DNA from: Lentinus brumalis
Lineage: Eukaryota > Basidiomycota > Agaricomycetes > Polyporales > Polyporaceae
Assembly (NCBI GenBank): GCA_001792895.1
Contig: MARA01000063.1
Location: 92,345 to 156,344, forward strand
Length of the DNA stretch: 64,000 bases
Direction: 5' to 3'
Shown: positions 16,794 to 49,170 of the stretch, in pieces
Position numbering within the stretch: position 1 is the stretch's first letter
Layout of the letters: each line of letters opens with the position of its first letter
Position numbers and translations under genes: made by a program
The notes under the pieces: generated by a model
What the model was told of the DNA's origin: nothing
Databases searched by the model: none
What the model saw: the letters and a program-made list of their open reading frames with translations, nothing else

Positions 16794-17016
16794 GATCAAT
16801 CCCATACCCGCGCGGTGGGCGACCGCTGTGACCAGCCCACATCACTGGGTTGTCCTATTGCATATCACCGTTCCCCTAAGGCGGAAGGTTGTCCGCGCGC
16901 GCTGCGCATCCCTGCTATGTCAATCACCCTAACGTCCAAGCACGTACACACCTATGACACCATATGTTTTCACCTCCATGCAATGCACGCTGATGACCAC
17001 TCGATACCTCATGTAG

Positions 17017-17400
17017 TCAAGCCGCAGCTGAGCGCTTTGGGGCATTCACGCGAAATATAAGTATGGCGAACTGCGTTTCGACGCCGCGTGACGGCTCAGC
17101 GCTCAGGAACGACGCACCACTGAGAGGCCTCGCCAAGTCAGCGTCGTCCAGACTCACGCCATCCAGATAGACCCATCCAGCGAATACCATGAAGAAAGGC
17201 ACATTGAACCTACGTCCTCAACGCCGACGCGAATATATTCGCCGTCGCGGTGACCCGTAAGTACAGTAAGATTTCGGTAAGTAAGTAGCTGAGCGGGTTC
17301 AAACGTTCACGATTTCCACGGTGCTGAGGGGACACGCAGACGATAGAGGGAGGAATCACCAGTGGCATACACTGGCGAGCACACGCCAGAAAAAACACAG
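17017..17400 (-). pseudogene. Truncated paralogue of the H3-tail/PHD gene C-terminal region
   Basis: On the - strand the frame 17202-17017 encodes PFFMVFAGWVYLDGVSLDD. It aligns with PFFMSFVSSVYIDGVNLDH in the last exon of the gene at 23315-25150, including the following FARxLS-like block. A frame just upstream (17398-17210, FFLACARQCMPLVIPP) may correspond to its preceding exon. No PHD-like finger, H3-like start or C-terminal Cys4 cluster is present nearby, so this is a remnant. It shows that the family has more than one member at this chromosome end. Confidence 0.5.
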
Positions 17401-23314: not shown

Positions 23315-25150
23315 TTATTCACCCCCTTCAACGGAAACCAGCCAAGCACCTTGTTCCACCGACTTCACCGCCGTATGACCGTTCGGCCGCGTGTATGTAC
23401 GGGTGAAGGGGCAGCCTGTCATCTCACATGTGCCATGCAAATCTGCGCCTTGGCCCGCCTTGATCTTGAGGCTCGCGATCGAACCGCATTCCGGACACTG
23501 GAGCGGGAGTTCTTCGCCCCAAGGTCGCACCGTCTTATGGCTCCATCGATACTTGTTGAGCTGCAGTGCCGGCTGGTCCGGCGTCTTCCGCGCGTACAGG
23601 AGCACGGTGGAATGGCGGTTAAGCATGGACGCGCAACTGAGCAACCTCGCGAAGTGGGTGTGGTCAAGGTTGACCCCGTCGATGTAGACGGAGCTCACAA
23701 AACTCATGAAGAACGGCACACTCATGCACGCCTGCAGGGCAGCCGCGCCAAAGCACACCACGCGTTGCACTTGCATGCTTTAGCAGGAAAAGGTCAGCTC
23801 GGCACCGACGCCAACAGAAAACTCCACCACTCACCGCTCAGCCGCAGTCTTCACAACCGTGCGATTCTCTTGGCTCTCCATGAGCGAGCCGCACGACAGC
23901 AAAGCCAGGGTCACGTCGGCCTTCGCTCCGACGTTCCACAGACGTTGAGGTATGACCTGCTGGAACCACTGTCGTGCGCACAGTGGTCAGCACAGTCGCA
24001 GCGGCATGAACGTGATCATACCTGAGTGAGGCCGTCGGACGCCATCCCCGCGCTCCAGAATAGATCACCTGAGGCATCCTCAGAGTGCGTGTAGATAAAA
24101 ACCAGCACCCGCACACGTCGGCCACAGTCGCTGCACAGCTGCCAGTTAGCACAGCGACATCATTCTGGTCGTCAAGCCGACCAACCTGTCAAGGAACTTG
24201 AGTTTTTCGTCCAATGCGTTCCTATACTCTGCCGCGTCGTCCATGTCGTCAAACGCATACGGGGCGTCGATGTATTTGAGGTCTGCGCTGTTGGTTATAA
24301 AGTAGCTCTGCAACATCGCGTACGTGACCATCGCTGGGCTGCCCGCGTCGCTGAGCGAGCTCAGGCGGATATGAACGATGACAATTGGTGCCGTGTTTGT
24401 CCTGGCGTGCATCGCGCGCAAATTCACAGCGTGGACCACCGTAAACGCATCTTCGAAGTAGGGGACCTCCTTGCCGTCGACCATCTTGTACAGGCCCTAC
24501 AGTGTCACAGAATTCGTAAGCCACTATCGCACGACGCTTGTGCTCTGGATCACGGACCTTGTAGCCACGCTCAGCCACGCATGCACCGGTGCCCTTCACC
24601 TTCCGTCGTTCCAGCACTTCGCACGACGTGCATTTGAAAATCAGCGGTTCCAGCTCCTCAGGCGAGAGCTCAGCGATTCGCGGGAAGTGTTTCCTGCAAA
24701 CGATCCGCAGGCATTTGTCGCATTCAATCGCGTCGCCGCCGTTTTGGCAAAGAGCACACCACTAGCACTGCGTCAGTACGCGTCGGCTCGCACCACTGAC
24801 TGACCCTAACCTCATCATGGACCGCTCGGGACAATGCCTGAGGCGGTTTAGGCCCGATGATTCTCAATCTCTTCGCGACGACACCATCCCGCCCCTGCGT
24901 GGTTGTTGATGCTGTACTCGTGCGTCAGCATTGATTCGCTATATTGTTCCAGCACTCACTGCGCTTGTTGCCGGACTTCTCGTCATCCGCCAGTCGGTCA
25001 TCGGCCTCCTTACTGTCCTTTATCCCCGGACCTGCTCTGCGGTCAGCCGTGTCCCCGTTTTCACCAAGTTGCCACTCCCCACTCACGAAGGGACGCCCTC
25101 GGAGCTGGCTCTCCCGTGCTTTTTCTAGCATGCTGTTTCGTTCGAGCCAT
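23315..25150 (-). CDS. Histone H3-tail mimic fused to a PHD-like finger
   Basis: Exons on the - strand: 25150-25087, 25031-24960, 24911-24811, 24761-24186, 24130-24022, 23956-23835 and 23777-23315, about 496 residues. All introns are GT-AG, 48-65 bp, with consistent phases. The ATG at 25150 has A at -3 and G at +4. The product begins MARTKQHARKSTGEPAPR. Counting after Met, 15 of the first 20 residues equal histone H3, including Lys4, Arg8, Lys9, Ser10 and Arg17; Thr6, Gly13, Lys14, Lys18 and Gln19 are changed. After an acidic linker comes a finger C-x2-C-x8-C-x2-C-x4-C-x2-H-x19-C-x2-C (start WCALCQNGGDAIECDKC), close to PHD fingers, which bind the H3 N-terminus. A mixed domain of unknown type follows (RVRVLVFIYTHSED, LALLSCGSL, PFFMSFVSSVYIDG), then a C-terminal CPEC...CEMTGC cluster. 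One frame change near 24499 needs either a 16-nt intron or an indel. There is no histone fold. Confidence 0.75.
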
Positions 25151-26076
25151 TGTTACAAGGCTGCTTGTGGGTGTTGACAAGGCAAAGAGCAAGTCAGGAA
25201 GTGGCGCAGAGGCGGCTGGCGGTGCGAGAAACTCCCACGACATCGCACTGCCCCCTCTGCCGCTCAGGCTTGCCCACGCAGTCGGATTAACACTTTGATA
25301 CGCGGGGATATCGATTTGGATAGCGCGACACGCACGCGAAAGGAAGGAAGCCGCAAGCCCCACCCATTTCTAACATACGATATTTTTGCGGCTATGCTGG
25401 GTCCTCGAGCCGAGCTGATGTACTCCTCCGCGAACTCTTTGCCGCTAATGCTGGCACCCAAAGCCTTCTGTGTCTCCTCTACCTCCTCCTAACCCCGTCC
25501 CCTTGCAAAACAAGGGGTTTTTCTGCACCTTGTGAACGCATTCCACTGGGTCACCCAGCGGCGTCCGTAGAGCCAGCGGAGCCAATCAAGGAGCGGCCCT
25601 GCCGCCCTCCCTGATACGCTTACTCTCTCTCGCTGGTCGTGTCATTGACCATGTTGAATCCGCCGACCACTCGGCAATCAACGTCGTCCATCCGCCCCCT
25701 CGACTTCGTGAGGACCTGGTCCGCTTGCTCACCTCGGGACACAAACTGGAGGTGGAGGCACTCTGTCGCCTACCTCCGGCAGAAGCCGCACAGGACTTCT
25801 ATGCAATACGCGCGTCCCTCTACCCAGCTTGATCGCATACCATACCGCATGACATCGTCGATGCCGTTCCTCCATTTCCTGCTGTCTCCCGACCAGCTTA
25901 CCCCTTTCCTCCCAAAATATGTACACGATGCGTTCGACTTTCTTGCCTTGCTTTACATGTCCGTAACCTACTCCTCCGACTTATCAGCACTCTTAAAGCA
26001 TGTTCTGCGGGCGCGCATAGCGGCCGCGCCCAACGTATCGATACGTTGGGATGGACTGCTGTCCCCGAATAATCAT
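25151..26076. other. Intergenic, with a hairpin
   Basis: Upstream of the H3-tail gene. A 7-bp hairpin with a T run lies at 25500-25523 (CCCCTTG, loop, CAAGGGG, TTTTT). A + strand frame (25639-26277) overlaps the end of the OB-fold gene and lacks motifs, so it is not called. Confidence 0.4.
26029..26050. repeat. Perfect 22-bp palindrome
   Basis: Self-complementary over 22 bp (half-site CCCAACGTATC), placed 27 bp past the stop codon of the - strand OB-fold gene. It could be a dimeric protein site or part of a 3' end. The role is unknown. Confidence 0.85.
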
Positions 26077-27064
26077 CTAAGCAGTCACCGACAACCGTCT
26101 GACCCTCACTGCCTCCGTATTTTGGCGGACTACATCCTCGAAGTTGTCGAGCTGTTCTTGCGTCACCACTTTCGGCAGGTCATATGTAAGCACCTCGCAG
26201 CGATCTGCCCCGTCACCGCCGTATGGGCGCACTTCGCCACACACCAGCACGCGTGTACCGATTCTGCGAGCACATAGTCAGTAAGACATGCGAACAGAGC
26301 ACAGTGGTGACCTTGCGTTATTTTAGCTTGCGCGTATCCAGATGCCGCCCGCCTCTCGTTCCCCCGCACCACATGTCGAATCAGGCAGGCTCCGCTGCTG
26401 TCGCGGATCGTCAGGAATATGACGCTCCCCGCAGATAACATCTTCATGACCCTTCCGGCTAAGAGAACCTTGACAGGTGGGTAAGTACCGCGCCTCAGAA
26501 TCCGCCACACACGCACTCACTCGCCCCAAGTTCGCACCGTCAAGCAACCAACCCAGCTCTCGCCCATTTCCCACTTCACGTGGTCCTTCAATCAATTCAG
26601 CCTCCGTGGACAGGGTTCCGGGTAGCACATAGGCGGCCCTCAGGCCCGCTTCTGCCTTGCCTCTTCGCGTCAACCACAGCGCACGCCAGCCTGTCGAAAG
26701 TACAGCAGACTCACCTCGGGTACCACAGCATATTCACCAAACGATCGCCTCAGCCAAGCAAACTGAGTCTGCCACGACGGGTACTTCTTTTCGTCCACTG
26801 CCCCACGAGGTTCAGTACTGAGCGGCTGCTCATGACCAGCTGCAGTGCTGCTCACCTTTACTCTCTTTGCATCCACACGTCAACCCCGGCCCCACCCGAT
26901 CATCACCCGTCAGCCCCACGTTTCCCGTAGCCTCGGCACCGTACTCGAATCCACCTAACCGGCAACGAGACGGCATATGACACCTGATACGGTCCACATC
27001 AGTTCTCGCACTCACCAACATTCAGGATCAGCTCATTGCCCGCATTCACCGAGTTCTCCGCCAT
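26077..27064 (-). CDS. RPA32/Stn1-like OB-fold protein (paralogue a)
   Basis: ATG at 27064 (MAENSVNAGNELILNVG). Later exons encode PSWQTQFAWLRRSFGEYAVV, a linker, and then, from 26468, an OB-fold-like core: VLLAGRVMKMLSAGSVIFLTI with the strand RDSSGACLIRHVV, and after another intron IGTRVLVCGEVRPYGGDG, CEVLTYDLPKVV and a helix with FEDVVRQNTEAV. The stop is at 26079-26077. The pattern (V-x-x-x-G strand, xSxxxFxI, D-x-S-G turn, then GTxVLVxGxV and a terminal helix) matches RPA32 and Stn1, subunits of the ssDNA- and telomere-binding complexes RPA and CST. Three more members lie at 36-43 kb; in all four an intron sits exactly before the first OB strand. One junction near 26850 would need a 16-nt intron, and the exon joint near 26290 is unresolved. 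The assignment is inferred from the pattern, not proven. Confidence 0.55.
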
Positions 27065-27670
27065 GGTGATGTTGAAGTCGCTTGTCTCGATGGAAGTGGC
27101 GGTTGCGGTCAAGCTGTCACAGTCGCCTAAATCAGCTATCGCGAACCGGGCGCCAGGCAGCCCACTTCATACCGGCATGGAACGGTATGTCTAACCCTTG
27201 GCGAAAGGACCCTATTACAACCTGTATCTCACAGGATCCCAACCCAATGGTTGCAGCCTGCCGGCGACCTGGTACACGCAGTTCAACAACAATTTTTGAT
27301 GTCCATCCCTCTTACGCTCTGAACAGGCGTGCGAAGGCGCCGCCATCTCCGGCGTGATGCGCCCTTTAACCGGCTTTTGCAACTGCCTCCCATCCTCCCT
27401 GCCAGGCTCAGCCGTCTGCATATCGGGATCCAGATAACCCGCTGAAACGAAAGTTTCCCAGCTGCGTGCTATCGGCCCGCATCCGCCACCGACTCACCGC
27501 TCCGTCAGAGACGTCCGCGTCAACCCCGACGGGCTGCATTGCTGCGCAACGCGCAACAGCCACTGAAACTTTGCCGTTGGCCCTGACCTCCCCGCGCCCC
27601 AAGGAATTGCACGAGGTAACTATCGTCTTCGCCCACGCAGCAACCGCCTCGGCACTGATGTCACTCGCAG
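27065..27670. other. Intergenic between divergent genes
   Basis: Lies between the - strand OB-fold gene and the + strand MYND gene. A - strand frame (27710-27408, with EAVAAWAKTIVTSCNSLG) could be an upstream exon of the OB-fold gene but is not supported by a clear splice join. The region probably contains both promoters. Confidence 0.35.
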
Positions 27671-28888
27671 ATGGCGGAGGAACAACGCTGTGGCTACGCG
27701 AACTGTGCATCCCAGAAAAGTGTCGTCAACCTGAAGCGCTGTGCTGGATGTCGACTCATCCGGTACTGCAGCCCTAATTGCCAGAAGGCTCACTGGGAGC
27801 TCCACGTCTTCGATTGTAAAACCGCAAAACCCATCAGCACGGTCTACTACCTTGCGCGCGACGTCAGGCGACACATCGTCCCTGTCCACCACCAGACTCG
27901 CAAAGATTACGGCTTTGACAAGGCGGAGCGCACGCTAGGGTCTCAAGGAGAGATATTGCTGGCCATGTTCTACCTGGGACTCATCGAACACGTCCCGCTG
28001 CCGCGTTTGCGCATGTGGCAGCAGGAGAGTCGCCTCGCGGAGGGCATCTCGGCGGTGTTCGCTGCGTCACCGCTTGCGCAGAAAGCAGGTCCCTACGAGT
28101 GGTACCTAGAGCACCAGTACCTCTTTGACGGCTCCGTGGTCGATCCAGACACGGGCGCCAGCCTACTCGCCCATTCAGTCATCACCGCTCTGCATAACGT
28201 CTGGCCATATGTCGGCGGCGATCCCAGTGACACATACGGAGTGATGTTCGCCAAGTCTCGCCAACTATCTCAACGCCAACAAACCTGTTTGTTCTTCGTC
28301 GCTGTCATACGGTCAGGGAATCCGGGCGTGCCTGCGCCAGACAAGACCACATGCCTCGAGTTCGGCTTCGTCGCCGAACAAGTCCCATACATCAACCTCG
28401 CCATGAAATACGCGGAGCTTCTCAACCGATGCAGTTTCGCGGAGCTGTGTGACGCGTACGCGACCTCCTCCATCGCGGACCTTTTCGCACGCTGCGGGAT
28501 AGTCGAGATCGGCCACAACGCTCTCTTCAAAGACGTTATGTCGGGATCCCCATACGCGTTCAAGCCCATCTGGCACCTGAAATTCTACATTCAGAACAAG
28601 CTCGCCGGGAGCAGCCCATATGAGGTTTCGGGGCCTGCGCCGTGTGTCGTGCGCGATTACGGTTACAACAACTGCAAGACACCGGAGGAGTTCAAACTAC
28701 TGGACGAGTTGTACACGCACCTGTTGGTCAAGTCCGTTGTCGATCCCCTCTCACTCCACGCGGCCTGCGTAGCAGGCCACCTGCTGAATTTCGCAAAGGC
28801 GTTCATGAAATTGTCCCCTTTCACCGCGAAGTATACCCGCCTCTTGAAGAGTGCCTACCCTCCGGCAACCTCGTCCTGCGGCCAGTGA
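27671..28888 (+). CDS. MYND-type zinc-finger protein
   Basis: Intronless, 405 residues, ATG at 27671. Residues 7-49 form a MYND finger: CGYANCASQKSVVNLKRC, AGCRLIRYCSPNCQ and AHWELHVFDC, with the C-x4-C, C-x2-C, C-x3-C and H-x3-C spacing of the family. MYND fingers bind proline-rich peptides and typically recruit partners in chromatin or signalling. The remaining 350 residues are helical and match no domain that I can name; they have no SET-domain motifs (no NHxCxPN), so this is not a SMYD methyltransferase. Stand-alone MYND proteins of this size are very common in agaricomycetes. It is the only long single-exon gene in the window with no sign of decay. It runs in the same direction as the TLH gene about 1 kb downstream. 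Confidence 0.85.
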   Translation: MAEEQRCGYANCASQKSVVNLKRCAGCRLIRYCSPNCQKAHWELHVFDCKTAKPISTVYYLARDVRRHIVPVHHQTRKDYGFDKAERTLGSQGEILLAMFYLGLIEHVPLPRLRMWQQESRLAEGISAVFAASPLAQKAGPYEWYLEHQYLFDGSVVDPDTGASLLAHSVITALHNVWPYVGGDPSDTYGVMFAKSRQLSQRQQTCLFFVAVIRSGNPGVPAPDKTTCLEFGFVAEQVPYINLAMKYAELLNRCSFAELCDAYATSSIADLFARCGIVEIGHNALFKDVMSGSPYAFKPIWHLKFYIQNKLAGSSPYEVSGPAPCVVRDYGYNNCKTPEEFKLLDELYTHLLVKSVVDPLSLHAACVAGHLLNFAKAFMKLSPFTAKYTRLLKSAYPPATSSCGQ

Positions 28889-29886: not shown

Positions 29887-32800
29887 ATGCCCGGTATGGA
29901 TGCTCCCCTGTGGCGGTACGTTCCGTGTGTCTTCCCGTGCTCCTCCTTCCGACGTACCCCAGTTCCAAGTGCCCACATTGTGGAATCCACCTTGTGCCAG
30001 CCGGTCTCCGCACACACATCGTCGTCGAACACCGCAATGTGGCCAACCCGCCTAAGCTTATTCGGGTGTACGTCAGGCACACCCCTCCGCTCTCCTAGTC
30101 CTGACCGCGCAGCAGCAATTGCCCTCACCCAGGTTGCAGGTCGCGCATGGTACCCGAAAACGTATCCGTCCACATGGAGACGAAACACCCGGACGCTGAC
30201 CAGCCTCCTTCGACGCCTGGGTTTGCACCACCCACCCCGGAAGCAGCGCATGCTGAGATGGCCGACGAACCGCTATCAGACGACGCGTCGAGAGCCGCCC
30301 GCAATCCCTGTGCGCCATCCTCATGCAGCGGGCAACCTCCTCACGCTGCGCCCAGCCTTGGATCCCTTTCCTTGCCGCCCCTCGAGTCGCATCGCGTGTC
30401 CGCCTCTGTGAGCCAACTCCACAGTACGCCCTCCGCCCGCGTGATGCAGACTCCGAGCTTCACGCCCAATGCGACCGTCGCCCGACCACCTTCGCCCATG
30501 GTTGTGGACGAGTTCCCACCACTCGACGACGGCATGCTCGTTGATCCGTTTGTGCTCGACGACAGAGACATCACGCCGCCTCCCGAGGTAGCACAGTCCC
30601 CACCGGGCCCGGAAGTGTCCGTTGACGTCTGTTCTTTGCATATCGCCCGCACCGCAGTGCTGGGCCCGCCGGCATGCTACCCACTTCAAGCGGAGCCGAG
30701 TCCGTCCGAGTGGTTACCCGCGCCAACCGATCCACCCCCTCTCACGCCCGCTACCTCCCACATCCGAGCGCCACACCCCGCGGCTGGCCCTGCACCCCGG
30801 GAACTGTTTCCGGACGAGGACTCGGTGCTTAACGATGTGGCGCTTGCGCCACACGGACTCATCGTGAACAAGAGGCACAGGTTGTTGATTTGCACCAAAT
30901 GCGGCTGCGCTATAGCCCCAAAGCATCTCCCCTCCCACTTCAAAGCTCATCACCGTGGAGACCTCAAGTCCGAAGAGGCACTGTGCATTGCGCAACACGT
31001 GCGGGACATGTACGAGATTCCGGATCAACCGGAGCTTCCGTCCCCGTCACACCAACCCATACCAGCCGTCTACGGCCTCCATGTCACGCCTGAGCCGTAC
31101 GTATTCTGCGCTGGCTGTGCACACGGCTTCAAGAACTTGAAAACGCTACGCCTCCACAAGTGCACAATGGAAGCACCGCCTTCAGCATCCTCAACTCACC
31201 ATTATGCGCAAACATTGTTCAACCACCCTAAATGCTTCATCGCTGTCGCTATACCGGAGGCAAACAATCGCACTCCGCTCTCCTACCGTCTACGGCAGCT
31301 CCTACGGGACGCACGCGACCACTTGTCCGCCCCCCCCGCCGCGACCACGCCCATAACGGCCCCCACACACACGGACGCTGCCATGGCATTCATACGTCAA
31401 GAACAATGGGATAAGGAGGTCTTGGGCCTTAATCCCGTGCAGGTTAGCGAGTGGGTGAGCCTTGACGAGAATCACCCGATACTATCGAAGATGCGTCCGG
31501 TATGCGCGTCGTACCTTGGCAAGATACACGCTTTGCTTCTCTCCGCCCCCGATCCCATCAAGACAGCGCTTGCGCGGTTTAATGAGTGAGTTTCTCTTAC
31601 CAATGACGCATGCGGCATTCCTCGTCTGCAGCACGGACTTCAGACCGCTAACCCCCACCAGGACCGCGCACAACAGTCATTCATTCTACGCCATCAAGTC
31701 CCTGAACGCCTACTCGTGCACTTTAACCAAATTCGTCTCATTCGTCATCCGCGCTCATCTGGACTTGCTAGGCGGACAGCCCGTTCATCTGAGCAGTGAG
31801 CAGCGAGCCGCGTGTGCCAGCCTCGTCACAGCGCTCCAGAGTCACGACGACAGGAGCGAGTCGGAAGACCACCTACAGTCGCTGATGTGGCTGCTAGTAT
31901 CCGCCAAGCGAGGGCAGTACGCTTTGGACATGCATTACACGCCGTTCTTCCACTACAGTATCTATTCCTCGCTGCAACGCAATGGCCAGTTCCACAGGGC
32001 ATCGGTCATTGGCCACAACAATGCCCAGCTCATGTTCGCTGCTCGCGCAGCAGTCTTTTACCACGTCCATCTCATCGGCAAGAGCACCGACGGCGATTTC
32101 TTAGGGTACGCGTTCCACGCCGCCGAGCCATCCAACCTTGCTCACTTGAGAACACAGCGTTTTCCAAAATTATCGGCATCTGGTATCGAACTCCACCGAT
32201 TGCCCGTTTTCCTACCTTGCCGGCGTTGCGGTCAGGACACGGGCGATCCGGGGGAAGGAAGAGTCGCTTCCGATTGTGCAATTTGTTGACAAGGCAGGCA
32301 CCCGCGCCAACGTCTCTGGCTCCGTCCTCGGCCTCACCGACATCGGCACCGGAGTGAAGGACATCCTTGGGGAGTACAGGGACATCGTCGAAGATCGCGC
32401 GCTCTTAGGCAAATTTACCATCGACGATCCCGTCTTCGCCTTCCCCGAAGACCTCAGCGAATGGCAGAACGACGCCACTAATGATGACCCCTTTTACGGG
32501 CTGTTCACAGACATTCGCAACCCGGCCCTTGCACTGCAACATACGCTCTACGACTTATTGACCAGTCACGGGGCGTATTACGGCCGCTTCGTCGTCCCGA
32601 ACAGCACCGATCTCGATGACGCTCTCCAATGGCACATGCATGCCGTGATATCCTTCCTGCGCGCCGCAGAGGATGCCGAAGGCCGGTTGTTCTCGGCTAT
32701 TCATCTGAGTTCCGGCCAGCCAGCTCGAGGCACCGAGTACTTGCCGTTGCACTTGGTAAACGCTACCGCAGGAGCCACGCGCAGCGTCCACCTTCAGTTT

Positions 32801-35477
32801 TGCTTTCTATTGTTCCTGTTTGGGTACAACAAAACGAGCTGCCATGTAAGCCCCTTCACGCTGCTTTGGTGATATTGCGACCTCTGAACAGGCAACCCTC
32901 ACGCTTAGGGCGGCCACGATCGCGCCATCGTTCGTACCCCCCACCTGCAGTCGTGAAGGTGTTCATGTTCCACATGATCTTCATCCGCCCAACCCAGGTT
33001 ATCTTCGCCGGCTTGCTCTCTGGCAAGGCCTCATCTCTCGCGTTACGCATGCGGACGCTCATCTTCCCCGGCTTCGACCGACCGTTAGAGTCGGATGACT
33101 TGGGCGACGCGCTTCAGCAGGATACCGGGACGCACCTCGGCGTCCCTTTCCGGTTGCGCACGTGGAGGCATCTCGCGACCTGCTTCACGAACGTCCACAC
33201 CGCCGTGCTGCCAGGCGTGGATCCTGAGGACGCCATCGAGGACGCGCAGCGAGGCCACAGCTCACACACCGCCCGGCGGGTGTACGACCGGAGCAACCAC
33301 TCCGTCAGCGGATCTACCCAGTACAGTATCCGCGATTACATTTCTTGCAGTATCTCGTGGCACAAGCTGATTGGGATGGGCGAACCTTCGGAGGCTCGAA
33401 CCGCACTCTCCTACCTCCAACACCCGGACGCAGCCGCCCCCTTGTTGTCCATCGGCGTCGACCAGTTGTCGGAGAAGCTCGCCGGACTGGTCTCCCCGTC
33501 CCTCGCAACTGCGGTTGAGAACGCGGTATCTGCCGCTTTCCACAGCATCTTTGACAAAATCCCCGAACCCGCCATTGCGCCCCACCCCGTGTCTCGCCGG
33601 CTCACATCTGCAACGGTCACACTTCCTGCCCCGATATCTCTGCTCCCCGCCTTTCGACAGTTCTTGTGCGACCCCCATGCGTCATTCAAGTCCCCGGAAC
33701 AAGCGCAATTCCTCACCCACCTGCTCGATGGGAAGCGAAACATCTTAGCATGTTTCCCCACGGGCTATGGCAAGACCCTCTTGATGCTCGTCCCTCCGGC
33801 CATGTATGAGCGCAACAAGGTTACGATCATTATTACCCCCCTTGATGGTCTTCAGCCGGATCTGCAGCGTCGTTGCAAGGAACATCATTTAGGCTACAGT
33901 GTGTGGACCCTTGATACCCGACACACCCCGCGCACGCCGGTCGTCTTTGCTGCTGTAGAGAGCGCTTCTACGCACTCCTTCCTCGAGTACATCACCACCC
34001 TCCAGAGTGACGGCACTCTTTCACGCATTATTTTTGAAGAGGCCCACGTCATTATCGCCCACAAGCACTTCCGGGCCTGCATGAATTACCTGCGGGACGT
34101 GCGACTCGCCGCTGTCCCGTTCGTCTTTCTGTCGGCTACGTTCCCCACTGTGCTCGAGCCAGAATTAGCGGCCGTGTTCGGAATCAGCACCCACGTCACG
34201 ATCCGCATACCCTCGTCACGTCCGGAGTTGGCGTACAGGGTCTTGCTTTTCACGACCGAGGCGGAGCTTCGCAACCAGCTGCGCGTCCACGTCGCTAGCT
34301 TGCTTTCGCGCTACTTACGCGGCGAACGACTGATGATCTTTTGCCGTTCTGTAAAAGAGGTCCAGTCGGTTTCCACCGCGCTCAACCTGCCCTGCTATTA
34401 TGCTTCCCTTCCCGTTGGTGTCCGCCTTGAGCTCTATGAGCGCTTCGCATCCGGAGAGGCCCCCGCAATCGTATCCACCACGTCGCTCGGGAACGGTGTG
34501 GACATATGTAATGTCCGCGACGTCATCCATGTGGGACCCCCGTACGATCTCACTTCGTTCTCCCAGGAGAGCGGCCGCGCTGGTCGGGACAAGCAGCACT
34601 CCCGATCCACCGTCTACGTATCGTTTGACTGGCAGCCGCCCCAGGACGCTCCTACGCTCGAGCCCGACCTATTCGGTGCCGAAGCCATGATGCAATGGCT
34701 TGCCAACAAGAATCAATGCCGCAGACTTGCCCTTTCCCTGTTCTTTGACGGTGCCGGGGTCACATGTGTGGAGCTACCCAATCCCAACCTGTGCGACGTC
34801 TGCGTAAAGGCAGAAAGCGCTCTCCCCTTCCTTCCCCACTCTGGCTCTCATCTTATTCCTGGCCGCATCACAGCATCCGACTTCACCGGACTCTGTCCCC
34901 CCTCTGCCTCTCACGGCGCGGCTGAGGTCGTGCGGGAAGCACACGCCTACAAAGCGCGGCAGCAGGCCGTCGTCGATGCCATGAAGCCTATAGCATCGGC
35001 TCTGCGATCCATACGCCACAGTTGTGCCTCATGCTACGTCCTTGGCCAGAGAGATTTTTCCGCCCACACGATCTCCGAATGCCCTCGCTTGACGAGTCGG
35101 GGATTCCAGCAGTTCAAGATTGCCTTCCGGCTCCCCAAGGGCATCTGTTGGCACTGCACGTTACCGCAGGTGGGCGTCGCTCTTGTAAGGGCTAATGCAA
35201 CCATGCTGACATGCCCCAGGGACGGGGACTGCACGGCAACAACCACGGAGACGCCCAGTGCGCTGACGGCGGCCAGATCCATGCCGCCCTGTATACCGCC
35301 ACGCTGGACGCAGAACTTCAACGCGTGCTGCGTGAATCTCTTCCAGGCAGCGCCTCTCTGCCCCAGGACCCAAGTCAATGGCCCGATTGGTTTGCACAGT
35401 CTGCTCACCCCCTCGCCAACCACCTCCAAGCCGCCAACATTCTTCTGCAGCGCGCGTTCCTCTTCTTCAAGGACTGA
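29887..35477 (+). CDS. Telomere-linked RecQ-type helicase (TLH)
   Basis: Exons: 29887-29915, 29963-30067, 30140-31585, 31662 to about 32200, about 32270-32846, 32959-35169 and 35220-35477. The start gives MPGMDAPLWR. The N-terminal part has C2H2-like fingers (KCPHCGIHL, and near residue 296 LLICTKCGCAIAPKHLPSHF, then VFCAGCAHGFKNL), as in OrsD-like domains found on fungal TLHs. The helicase core follows: motif I FPTGYGKT (33753-33776), a DEAH-like box reading EEAH (34036-34047), motif III SATFP, and motif VI QESGRAGRD (34564-34590). The C-terminus carries a zinc-binding region (SCASCYVLGQRDFSAHT, ICWHCTLPQ). TLH genes sit next to telomeres in many fungi and are thought to act in telomere recombination. 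The frame change near 32200 is not explained by a clear intron, and the 112-bp intron 32847-32958 is longer than the rest, so a frameshift cannot be excluded. Confidence 0.85.
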
Positions 35478-36214
35478 AGCAGCACAACATCCCCTTCACG
35501 TCCAGGCGTGCACACCGCCGTGTGGTGAGGTTCTGTTGGCGTTCGCTGTGGAGTCGCAGTCGATTCCCGTCGCGGTGATGCTGCTCTTCCCAACGTCGTG
35601 TTCGTGGTGTTCGTGCTCTCATATGCAGAAGCTCCTTGGCCGTAGTTCCCCCCTGTCGACCTCGTACCACATATGTTTCGTTTTTATGTATGCATTGTCG
35701 TGAACAGTGACACGGTGATCGCTCGCAGCACGACTCATTCCGAAGACCGGTACGCAACCTCTCTGCCTAGTGCCGCGAGCGGTTCACGAGTGCAGCGCGA
35801 CCGCGCCCCCGTAATGCACGGCGGAAGAGCGAACCCACAATGCTTTGCGAGTATGAAGCGCAACAGGCATCGTTCCTACTTCGGTGCGTAAGACGCATCC
35901 CTCACGTCGACCTTTAGCGAGGCCCGACGACCTCTCGTACCGCGGCGCCCTCCCGCGGCTACCGCGTGCGCCCTTTGACACTTCATCAGCTCTGCCCTTC
36001 GTCCCCGCTCTCCCAAGCAAAACGCAGGCGGGCACCCCCAGCCCCCGTCCACCCGCGGCAGTTTGTCACCTCCCGCTGGCCGCCTGACGTCGCCGTTTTG
36101 AGTTGATCTTCCAGTTCAGGTGGCCGCTTCCGTCTACACGTTCAACAATGCGCATGTCCACCAGGAGTTCCTGAATAGCCATGCTGTAACCCATCAGTTT
36201 CACATGGTTATGTC
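35478..36214. other. TLH 3' flank, no gene
   Basis: An open frame runs on past 35169 if the last TLH intron is not spliced, but it has no family features. Nothing else is supportable. Confidence 0.4.
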
Positions 36215-47909: not shown

Positions 47910-49170
47910 GCCAACCCACGGCTGCCGCCCCAGGTCACCCAAGGCAAGCAGACGTCCTGCACCTCACGGTGCGAGTCGACGTGCCACGCAAAGGCGTTGG
48001 AGTTCCCTGCGCGCTGCCAGGTAACCCACAGCAGACGCGACTGGGACACGTCTCGCAACGCTGGCTCCGAGCACATTGCGTCGCGTCCGACTGTCATTCC
48101 GCCAGTCGCTCTCGTAGCGGCTGCGACTGCACGCGGGGAAATCCGCGCACAATCTAGCCACAGCTACACGCAGAGACGGCGGAGACACTCGGGCAACGGT
48201 GTTGAGTCGTCCAGGCTTTGGTACTGACCGGATCCTTGAGTGACCATGCAGCGCAGCCGTGACGTTGCCCGCTGCCACCCGTCCCCGAACTCCGCGCCCG
48301 GACATCGACTGCAAGCGGGGCAATCCGCGCGCAATCTAGTCATAGCGGGGCCGAGACGGAGAATTTGGACGTGCGAACGTTTGCGACGGATCTTGAGGAC
48401 CATGCCTTGCGAGGACGCACCAGACCGTTGGCGGGGAGCCGCAGAGGATAAGGCCTAAGGCTTGAAGCTTGACGGTTGAGGGTTGAAGCTCGAGGGTTGA
48501 CGTTGAAGCTTGGAACGTTGAGTCCCCGCGTTGATCGACGTAACCACGGATGTCGCTGCGACCCGTCCCCGAACTCAGCGCCCGGACATCGACTGCACGC
48601 GGGGCAATCCGCACGCAATCTAGTCATAGCGGGGCCGAGACGGAGAATTTGGACGTGCGAACGTTTGCGACGGATCTTGAGGACCATGCCTTGCGAGGAC
48701 GCACCAGACCGTTGGCGGGGAGCCGCAGAGGATAAGGCCTAAGGCTTGAAGCTTGACCGTTGAGAGTTGAAGCTCGAGGGTCGACGTTGAAGCTTGGAAC
48801 GTTGAGTCACCGCGTTGATCGACGTAACCACGGATGTCGCTGCGACCCGTCCCCGAACTCAGCGCACGGACATCGACTGCACGCGGGGCAATCCGCACGC
48901 AATCTAGTCATAGCGGGGCTGAGACGGACGACTTGGCCACGCGAACCATCGCCGCACGCTTGCAAAATTGAGGATGGTTGGCGGGAGGGAGAAGGGAGTG
49001 ACGCTGGCAGACACGTTCTGCACGTCCCGGGTTGATCCGAAGCCACCCGCAACTCCCACGGGGGGGCATGGCCCGGTCATGGCCCGGTCATGGCCCGGTC
49101 ATGGCCCGACCATGGCCCGACCATGGCTCCAGCATTCACACTTGGTTATCGTCCACGCGTGGCTGATTTC
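47910..49170 (+). repeat. Subtelomeric repeat, copy D
   Basis: Full-length-like copy: leading block, 284-bp modules with anchors at 48280, 48564 and 48848, terminal block and an 11-bp CCATGGCCCGA minisatellite (49064-49130), followed by the same 40-bp flank as copy B. One module junction near 48210 lacks a stretch (GGGTTGTTGAGTACT) present in copies A-C; copy E shows the same deletion, so D and E are closest relatives at that site. Confidence 0.9.

Follow-up and report, generated by a model that had tools for sequence, protein, structure and literature searches.

In the polypore Lentinus brumalis, a stretch of 64,000 nucleotides (contig MARA01000063.1, positions 92,345 to 156,344; the whole stretch is called the window) carries a minus-strand gene for a protein which begins as a near-copy of the histone H3 tail, continues with a PHD-type zinc finger and then reaches a predicted caspase-like domain. 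Our leading explanation, to which we assign a probability of roughly 0.4, is that the tail copy of this protein serves as a latch and docks on the PHD finger of its own or of a sister molecule. The latch was inferred because the ligand and a fitting finger share one chain, and because BAZ2B and PAF15, described below, offer precedents. Docking in cis or in trans, a protease activity and the role of the caspase-like protein are put forward here as a proposal.

The H3-like tail, its gene and its homologues

After the initiator methionine, 15 of the first 20 residues were found identical to H3, as had been stated by the original prediction made from the letters of the window. The genome yielded three H3 genes, of which L014 and L011 were used as reference. 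When up to 3 mismatches to a degenerate MARTKQxARK pattern were allowed, 1 match was observed in the window versus 0.00 expected from 100 shuffles. Judged by sequence, the likeness of the tail to H3 is not chance. The absence of a histone fold was claimed as well, and our searches agreed: the L. brumalis protein had no Pfam match at E≤1 that would place such a fold after the tail, and no PF00125 match was located on this contig among the 22 listed for the genome. Genome-wide, the pattern ATGGCNMGNACNAARCAR gave 6 matches, i.e., the three H3 genes (L011, L012, L014), the tail gene, L010 and L009, in a search that is blind to starts split by an intron within six codons. L010 encodes MASTKQ, and L009 reads MARTKQVVSM with the likeness ending there; both lie at unrelated places.

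At the identical residues, the tail gene shares 3 of 15 codons with L014 and 1 of 15 with L011, compared with 12 of 20 shared between L014 and L011. L012 was excluded from this count, since an intron splits its tail. As the codons are unlike those of the H3 genes of the genome, the amino acids appear to have been held while the DNA differs. Such a pattern speaks for long-lasting selection on the amino acids, whether they were captured long ago or arose convergently, although H3 genes also have a codon usage of their own, which limits the argument. A recent exon capture from an H3 gene is disfavoured by the same low codon sharing. Among the H3 genes themselves, L011 and L012 (contig C82, near 757 kb and 1072 kb) have AAKSQARKTAA where L014 has AAKAARKTAP, and each of the two adjoins an H4-like frame of opposite orientation.

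The gene structure is one of predicted splicing, and the gene models of the homologues are likewise predictions. Exon 1 (25150-25087) can be joined to 7 further exons with the frame open throughout and ending at 23315. All 7 predicted introns are 48-61 nucleotides long and of the GT-AG type. In intron 1, an AG five bases before the chosen acceptor would, by eye, lead to an early stop if used. The start ATG at 25150 has A at -3 and G at +4, which, together with the open frame of 485 amino acids over 8 exons, bears out the earlier description of a spliced minus-strand gene with a start in good context. The window forms the end of its contig (C97) in a genome of 53.4 Mb and 136 contigs. Its last 133 bases are TTAGGG repeats, and the gene is therefore located about 39 kb from the chromosome end.

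A whole-protein similarity search (E≤0.001, 7996 candidates scored) identified five relatives with 37-67% identity over 32-99% of the query: P0002, P0004 and P0005 from Earliella scabrosa, P0003 from Polyporus arcularius and P0001 from Lentinus tigrinus. A profile search of the family, for which the 7995 candidates sharing most words were scored, yielded the same five proteins and nothing further. The tail-only protein search (residues 1-40) gave no match among 10 candidates; known relatives were missed too, so it is uninformative. In IMG/VR, 119 stretches fitted a pattern and 0 were confirmed. MARTKQ is the exact N-terminus, at the same place, of P0002, P0003, P0004 and P0005. P0001 is a partial model fused to upstream sequence and keeps the second half of the tail only (KSTGESAPRAKL). 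Conservation of the start in homologues, named beforehand as a point on which the prediction could fail, was thus found in four of five cases.

For residue conservation, five full tails were compared, namely those of the L. brumalis protein, P0002, P0003, P0004 and P0005; P0001 was excluded, as the start of its model does not coincide with the tail. A1-Q5, R8, S10-G12, A15-R17 and L20 were invariant, T6, A7, K9, G13, K14, K18 and Q19 variable. K4 is the sole invariant lysine, K14 is kept in one of the five, and homology ends at L20. The original prediction had listed Lys9 as kept and had considered a decoy function for the tail. The residue is indeed present in the L. brumalis tail, but the family shows K, K, R, Q and R at this position, which weakens the idea of a K9 decoy, and K9 mimicry as the main role was rejected. 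With a mean identity of 78% (10 pairs) the tail was the best-kept segment, compared to about 48% for the caspase-like core (6 pairs from the L. brumalis protein, P0002, P0004 and P0005). This core average is without P0001, whose extra pairs gave 43-52%, and without P0003, whose model lacks about the first two thirds of the core including the His/Cys pair. Tail pairs with P0001 showed 38-48% identity. The positions of all features are summarized in Table 1.

Table 1. Positions of the tail-bearing gene, its predicted parts and a related relic in the window
Feature	Position	Strand	Remarks
Tail-bearing gene, whole coding region	23315..25150	-	8 predicted exons, 485 amino acids; splicing reconstructed; homologues P0001-P0005
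Predicted exons	25150-25087, 25031-24960, 24911-24811, 24761-24558, 24496-24186, 24130-24022, 23968-23835, 23777-23315	-	
Sole in-frame upstream ATG	25241..25243	-	31 codons ahead of the tail; G at -3, T at +4
H3-like tail, Met + residues 1-20 (MARTKQHARKSTGEPAPRASL)	25088..25150	-	15/20 residues as in H3; start kept in 4/5 homologues
Linker, residues ~22-79, end of exon 1 and exons 2-3	24811..25087	-	variable; 4-35% identity over 15 member pairs; predicted local distance difference test score (pLDDT) ~20-35 in homologue models
PHD-type zinc finger, residues 80-126	24621..24761	-	putative ligands C81, C84, C93, C96, C101, H104, C123, C126; profile match to CHD4, TRIM33 and TRIM24 chains
Predicted caspase-like (clan CD, CHAT-like) domain, residues ~183-405, exons 5-8	23558..24391	-	
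His266, putative catalytic His, motif FIYTHSE	24085..24087	-	invariant in 5/5; directly after or at end of strand 3 in both models
Cys313, putative catalytic Cys, motif LxCGxL	23891..23893	-	invariant in 5/5; directly after or at end of strand 4 in both models
C-terminal zinc-ribbon-like cluster, residues 426-454, CxxC...CxxxxC	23411..23497	-	kept in P0001, P0002, P0003; not in the P0004 and P0005 models
Remnant of a further family member, reduced to a later part of the caspase-like domain and interrupted by a stop	16936..17208	-	tblastn: L. brumalis protein E 1.2e-7, P0003 E 3.0e-6

The PHD-type finger and the predicted caspase-like domain

The PHD-like Cys/His cluster noticed earlier begins at Cys81 and was recovered by the family profile, which matched solved structures of a CHD4 chain (E 1.1e-9) and of TRIM33 (E 2e-7). 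Over residues 81-126 the spacing is CxxC-x8-CxxC-x4-C-x2-H-x18-CxxC. Canonical PHD fingers have the ligand order Cys4-His-Cys3. The finger departs from this order: in all five finger-holding sequences ligands five and six are swapped to Cys and His (residues 101-104; 24687-24698, minus strand), giving C4-C-H-C2. Pfam assigned 0 families to the L. brumalis protein and left the finger uncalled; across the 6 members a single PF00628 match at E 0.18 was obtained. Exon 4 alone yielded 13 rows at E≤1, all of them TRIM24, TRIM33, TRIM66, CHD4, AIRE and SP140, with a weak best match to TRIM24 (E 0.0012). The PHD fingers of TRIM24, TRIM33, TRIM66 and CHD4 are readers of unmodified H3K4. The AIRE finger is described as such a reader in PMC4225485, where D328 of KDM5B binds H3R2, and hydrophobic or aromatic A1 residues as well as a PxG loop holding A1 are named. 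By spacing, the counterpart of Asp328 is Asp in four of the five fingers (L. brumalis, P0001, P0002, P0004) and Asn in P0003. A Phe as the aromatic residue two before the penultimate Cys, and I or L two before the third Cys, were found in all five. In its sequence the finger resembles PHD fingers reading unmodified H3K4, and such reading is predicted. The tail residues most contacted by fingers of this kind (A1, R2, T3, K4) are invariant in the five full tails. Tail and finger occur together in four of six sequences (L. brumalis, P0002, P0003, P0004); the model of P0005 is without most of the finger, and P0001 is without the full tail.

Behind the finger, the original prediction had placed a domain of unknown type. 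A domain does follow, and its type is now predicted from homologue structure models of middling quality to be a caspase-like (clan CD) fold. For both models a clan CD chain was ranked first by VIA-align. In clan CD proteases the His stands after strand 3 and the Cys after strand 4, and the putative catalytic residues were found at these places in both models. Their invariance was counted over the five sequences spanning the pair, P0003 being without that part. Sequence searches returned no counterpart. For Pfam CHAT (PF12770), the L. brumalis protein had no Pfam match at E≤1, and no CHAT family was among the 9 listed for the 6 members. PF12770 gave 0 matches elsewhere in the genome, which is weak evidence from an exon-wise search. 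A profile of the catalytic domain compared with PDB yielded 4 rows at E≤10, all unrelated (E 0.8-1.7) and none a clan CD chain. NCBIfam gave one chance match and nothing else.

The proposed latch and rival explanations

In the proposed latch, the initiator methionine would be removed and A1-R2-T3-K4 of the tail would fill the PHD groove, either in cis across the linker of about 58 residues or in trans as a head-to-tail chain. The docked tail would keep the caspase-like domain in a resting or assembled state. Free or nucleosomal H3 tails might compete for the PHD groove and thereby cause release, and an H3K4 methyltransferase could methylate K4 of the tail and open the latch. The activity of the caspase-like domain would then track the local supply or the K4 state of H3 tails. 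Docking on the own finger or that of a sister molecule had been among the suggestions of the original prediction. It gained support from the finger being closest in sequence to PHD readers of unmodified H3K4, the invariant A1-K4 and the R2-binding Asp in four of five fingers, although the matches of the single exon were weak (best E 0.0012).

Several observations weigh against the latch or against the domain assignments on which it builds. The PxG loop which holds A1 in KDM5B was found in none of the five fingers, and P0001 and P0003 are without the acidic residue two positions ahead of the first Cys. P0005 keeps the tail, but in its model zinc ligands one to six are missing. The break sits at the residue of the exon 3/4 border of the L. 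brumalis gene, which makes an annotation error possible. The finger does not account for the conservation of R8-L20. A second reader would thus be conceivable, perhaps the caspase-like domain, an H3 kinase or an H3 methyltransferase. Clan CD and CHAT proteases have a His-Gly motif, in place of which His-Ser was found in all five sequences. Foldseek on the second model put alpha/beta hydrolases first, VIA-align did not. Finally, the ATG at 25243 is in frame, with a context weaker than that at 25150; translation from it would put 31 extra residues ahead of MARTKQ, make the tail internal and bury A1.

Instead of forming a latch, the tail may be a bait, offered to H3 writers and erasers or to invading chromatin-directed factors as a substitute substrate, with the caspase-like domain reporting the modification like an integrated decoy. 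We consider this rather unlikely. H3 writers include Set1/COMPASS at K4, haspin at T3, Aurora at S10 and arginine methyltransferases at R2, R8 and R17. K4, T3, Q5, R2, R8, S10, T11 and R17 are invariant in the five full tails, which is beyond the needs of a PHD finger, but the major methylation and acetylation sites K9, K14 and K18 were not kept. The subtelomeric place, the decayed sister copy and the three Earliella members fit a fast-turning gene family. Fungal NLRs use CHAT proteases as effector domains, and some fungal gasdermins are under the control of such proteases (PMC10197012, PMC12881547); however, NLR, repeat and gasdermin families gave no match at E≤0.01 in the ten Pfam-scanned frames of the window. 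Alternatively, the tail may be a docking peptide for another protein, such as a different PHD or BIR reader or an importin, which would place the protein and not regulate its caspase-like domain. A1 and T3 are invariant, the P0005 tail is kept though its model is without most of the finger, and N-terminal H3 mimics acting in trans are known, i.e., AKER of Sgo1 on Survivin (PMC9253516) and PAF15 on UHRF1 (PMC7060239). Nevertheless, this explanation remains unlikely in our view; the same protein already holds a fitting reader. For the importin Kap123, PMC5677370 describes reliance on K14 and K23 of H3, but K14 is found in one of five full tails and homology ends at L20. With K23 outside the homology, nuclear import via Kap123 is disfavoured.

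L20, the end of the homology block, lies near a known H3 clipping zone. The tail could be a pseudosubstrate or propeptide of the protein's caspase-like domain, and the clipping of H3 tails would be the task of this domain. Conservation running beyond the PHD footprint to L20 and then stopping agrees with this idea, as does the His/Cys pair invariant in the five spanning sequences. The residues just beyond L20 are not conserved, however, the active-site motif deviates (His-Ser) and a catalytic role is putative, and we regard such a function as quite improbable. Chance, an annotation artefact or a one-off capture, with exon 1 not truly joined or an H3-like start without function, is very improbable. 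The gene structures of the L. brumalis gene and of the homologues are all predicted and an in-frame upstream ATG exists, but four gene models from two species begin at the same residue and the tail is more conserved than the rest. Moreover, the chance expectation was 0.00, and the predicted introns, all GT-AG and 48-61 nucleotides long, keep the frame open.

Returning to the latch, a further-reaching version can be formulated. The protein would be a self-reading chromatin sensor, a caspase-like protease of the death or defence type that is turned on or off by genuine H3 tails or by methylation at K4. Its tail would serve as the integrated bait of a fungal protein for immunity or genome surveillance. 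This version is speculative, and we would bet against it.

Genomic surroundings and comparison with known systems

The truncated paralogue reported near 17017 proved to be real and corresponds to the decayed relic at 17208-16936 (Table 1). A JmjC gene, described as a neighbour on the same chromosome end, was not found: of the 9 PF02373 matches listed for the genome, this contig holds none, a weak negative, since the exon-wise six-frame search could miss a broken-up gene. The Pfam scan of the surroundings covered ten frames of the window, of which five matched at E≤0.01. Two of the matches are fragments, one of Pif1 type and one of an OB-fold that stays below the cut-off; the other three are a MYND finger, an OrsD domain and a DEAD/Helicase_C helicase that looks RecQ-like by eye. 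Upstream of the tail gene and on the same strand, exon-like frames at 26077-26516 (minus) resemble the OB-fold protein (PF01336, E 0.0016, below the cut-off), RPA32-like by eye. The MYND-finger gene is one long frame at 27659-28888 (plus; PF01753, E 8.9e-9). It is followed at 30105-35703 (plus) by the OrsD-domain frame and then the helicase. Helicases of such RecQ-like kind are often located near chromosome ends. Nearly identical tandem units of 284 bases, 2.3 copies each, were observed at 728-1386 and 48270-48928, about 47.5 kb apart.

Among known systems, BAZ2B likewise combines an H3-like stretch and a PHD finger in one chain. According to PMC5663869, its histone-mimicking linker competes with H3 for the own PHD finger. 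The BAZ2B stretch is disordered and, unlike the tail described here, lysine-rich, located after the finger and like H3 in general charge. In the tail-bearing protein, 20 residues before the finger resemble the H3 N-terminus position by position, and the finger is followed by the predicted caspase-like domain. PAF15 is, like the L. brumalis protein, a non-histone protein with an H3-like N-terminus. According to PMC7060239, this N-terminus fills the UHRF1 PHD groove, which reads H3 residues 1-4, with H3-like affinity. There, however, ligand and reader are two proteins, whereas both are found in one chain in the tail-bearing protein. In Sgo1, the N-terminal Ala and the next residues mimic H3 on the BIR domain of Survivin (PMC9253516). 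The N-terminal Ala with its following residues acting as H3 mimic is a common trait, but in Sgo1 the likeness covers AKER only, and reader fold and partner are different.

The finger shares with TRIM24 and TRIM33 the CxxCQNGG(D/E)xxxC(D/E)xC core and the aromatic residue two before the penultimate Cys. In contrast to TRIM24, TRIM33, CHD4 and AIRE, it has Cys as ligand 5 and His as ligand 6, and the A1 loop is replaced. The domain behind it resembles CHAT and other clan CD proteins (SAVED-CHAT, MALT1, caspases, separase) in the predicted fold and in the placement of His after strand 3 and Cys after strand 4. It differs from them by the absence of significant sequence matches (Pfam CHAT, PDB clan CD chains) and by His-Ser for His-Gly; TPR, NLR and SAVED parts were not seen. 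For the architecture of H3 tail, PHD finger and caspase-like domain, no description was found among the titles and abstracts listed from open-licence PMC papers. If the latch is true, the protein would sense, as a natural single chain, either H3 tail supply or methylation at K4. This would make accessible to experiment how chromatin state can control a protease, and what evolution keeps of the H3 tail once the nucleosome constraint is gone, K4 being kept and K9, K14 and K18 not. Histone mimicry has so far consisted of short likenesses bound by a partner, or of a charged linker. Here, a position-exact likeness to 20 residues of the H3 tail is kept in a fungal family together with the matching type of finger and a predicted caspase-like domain.
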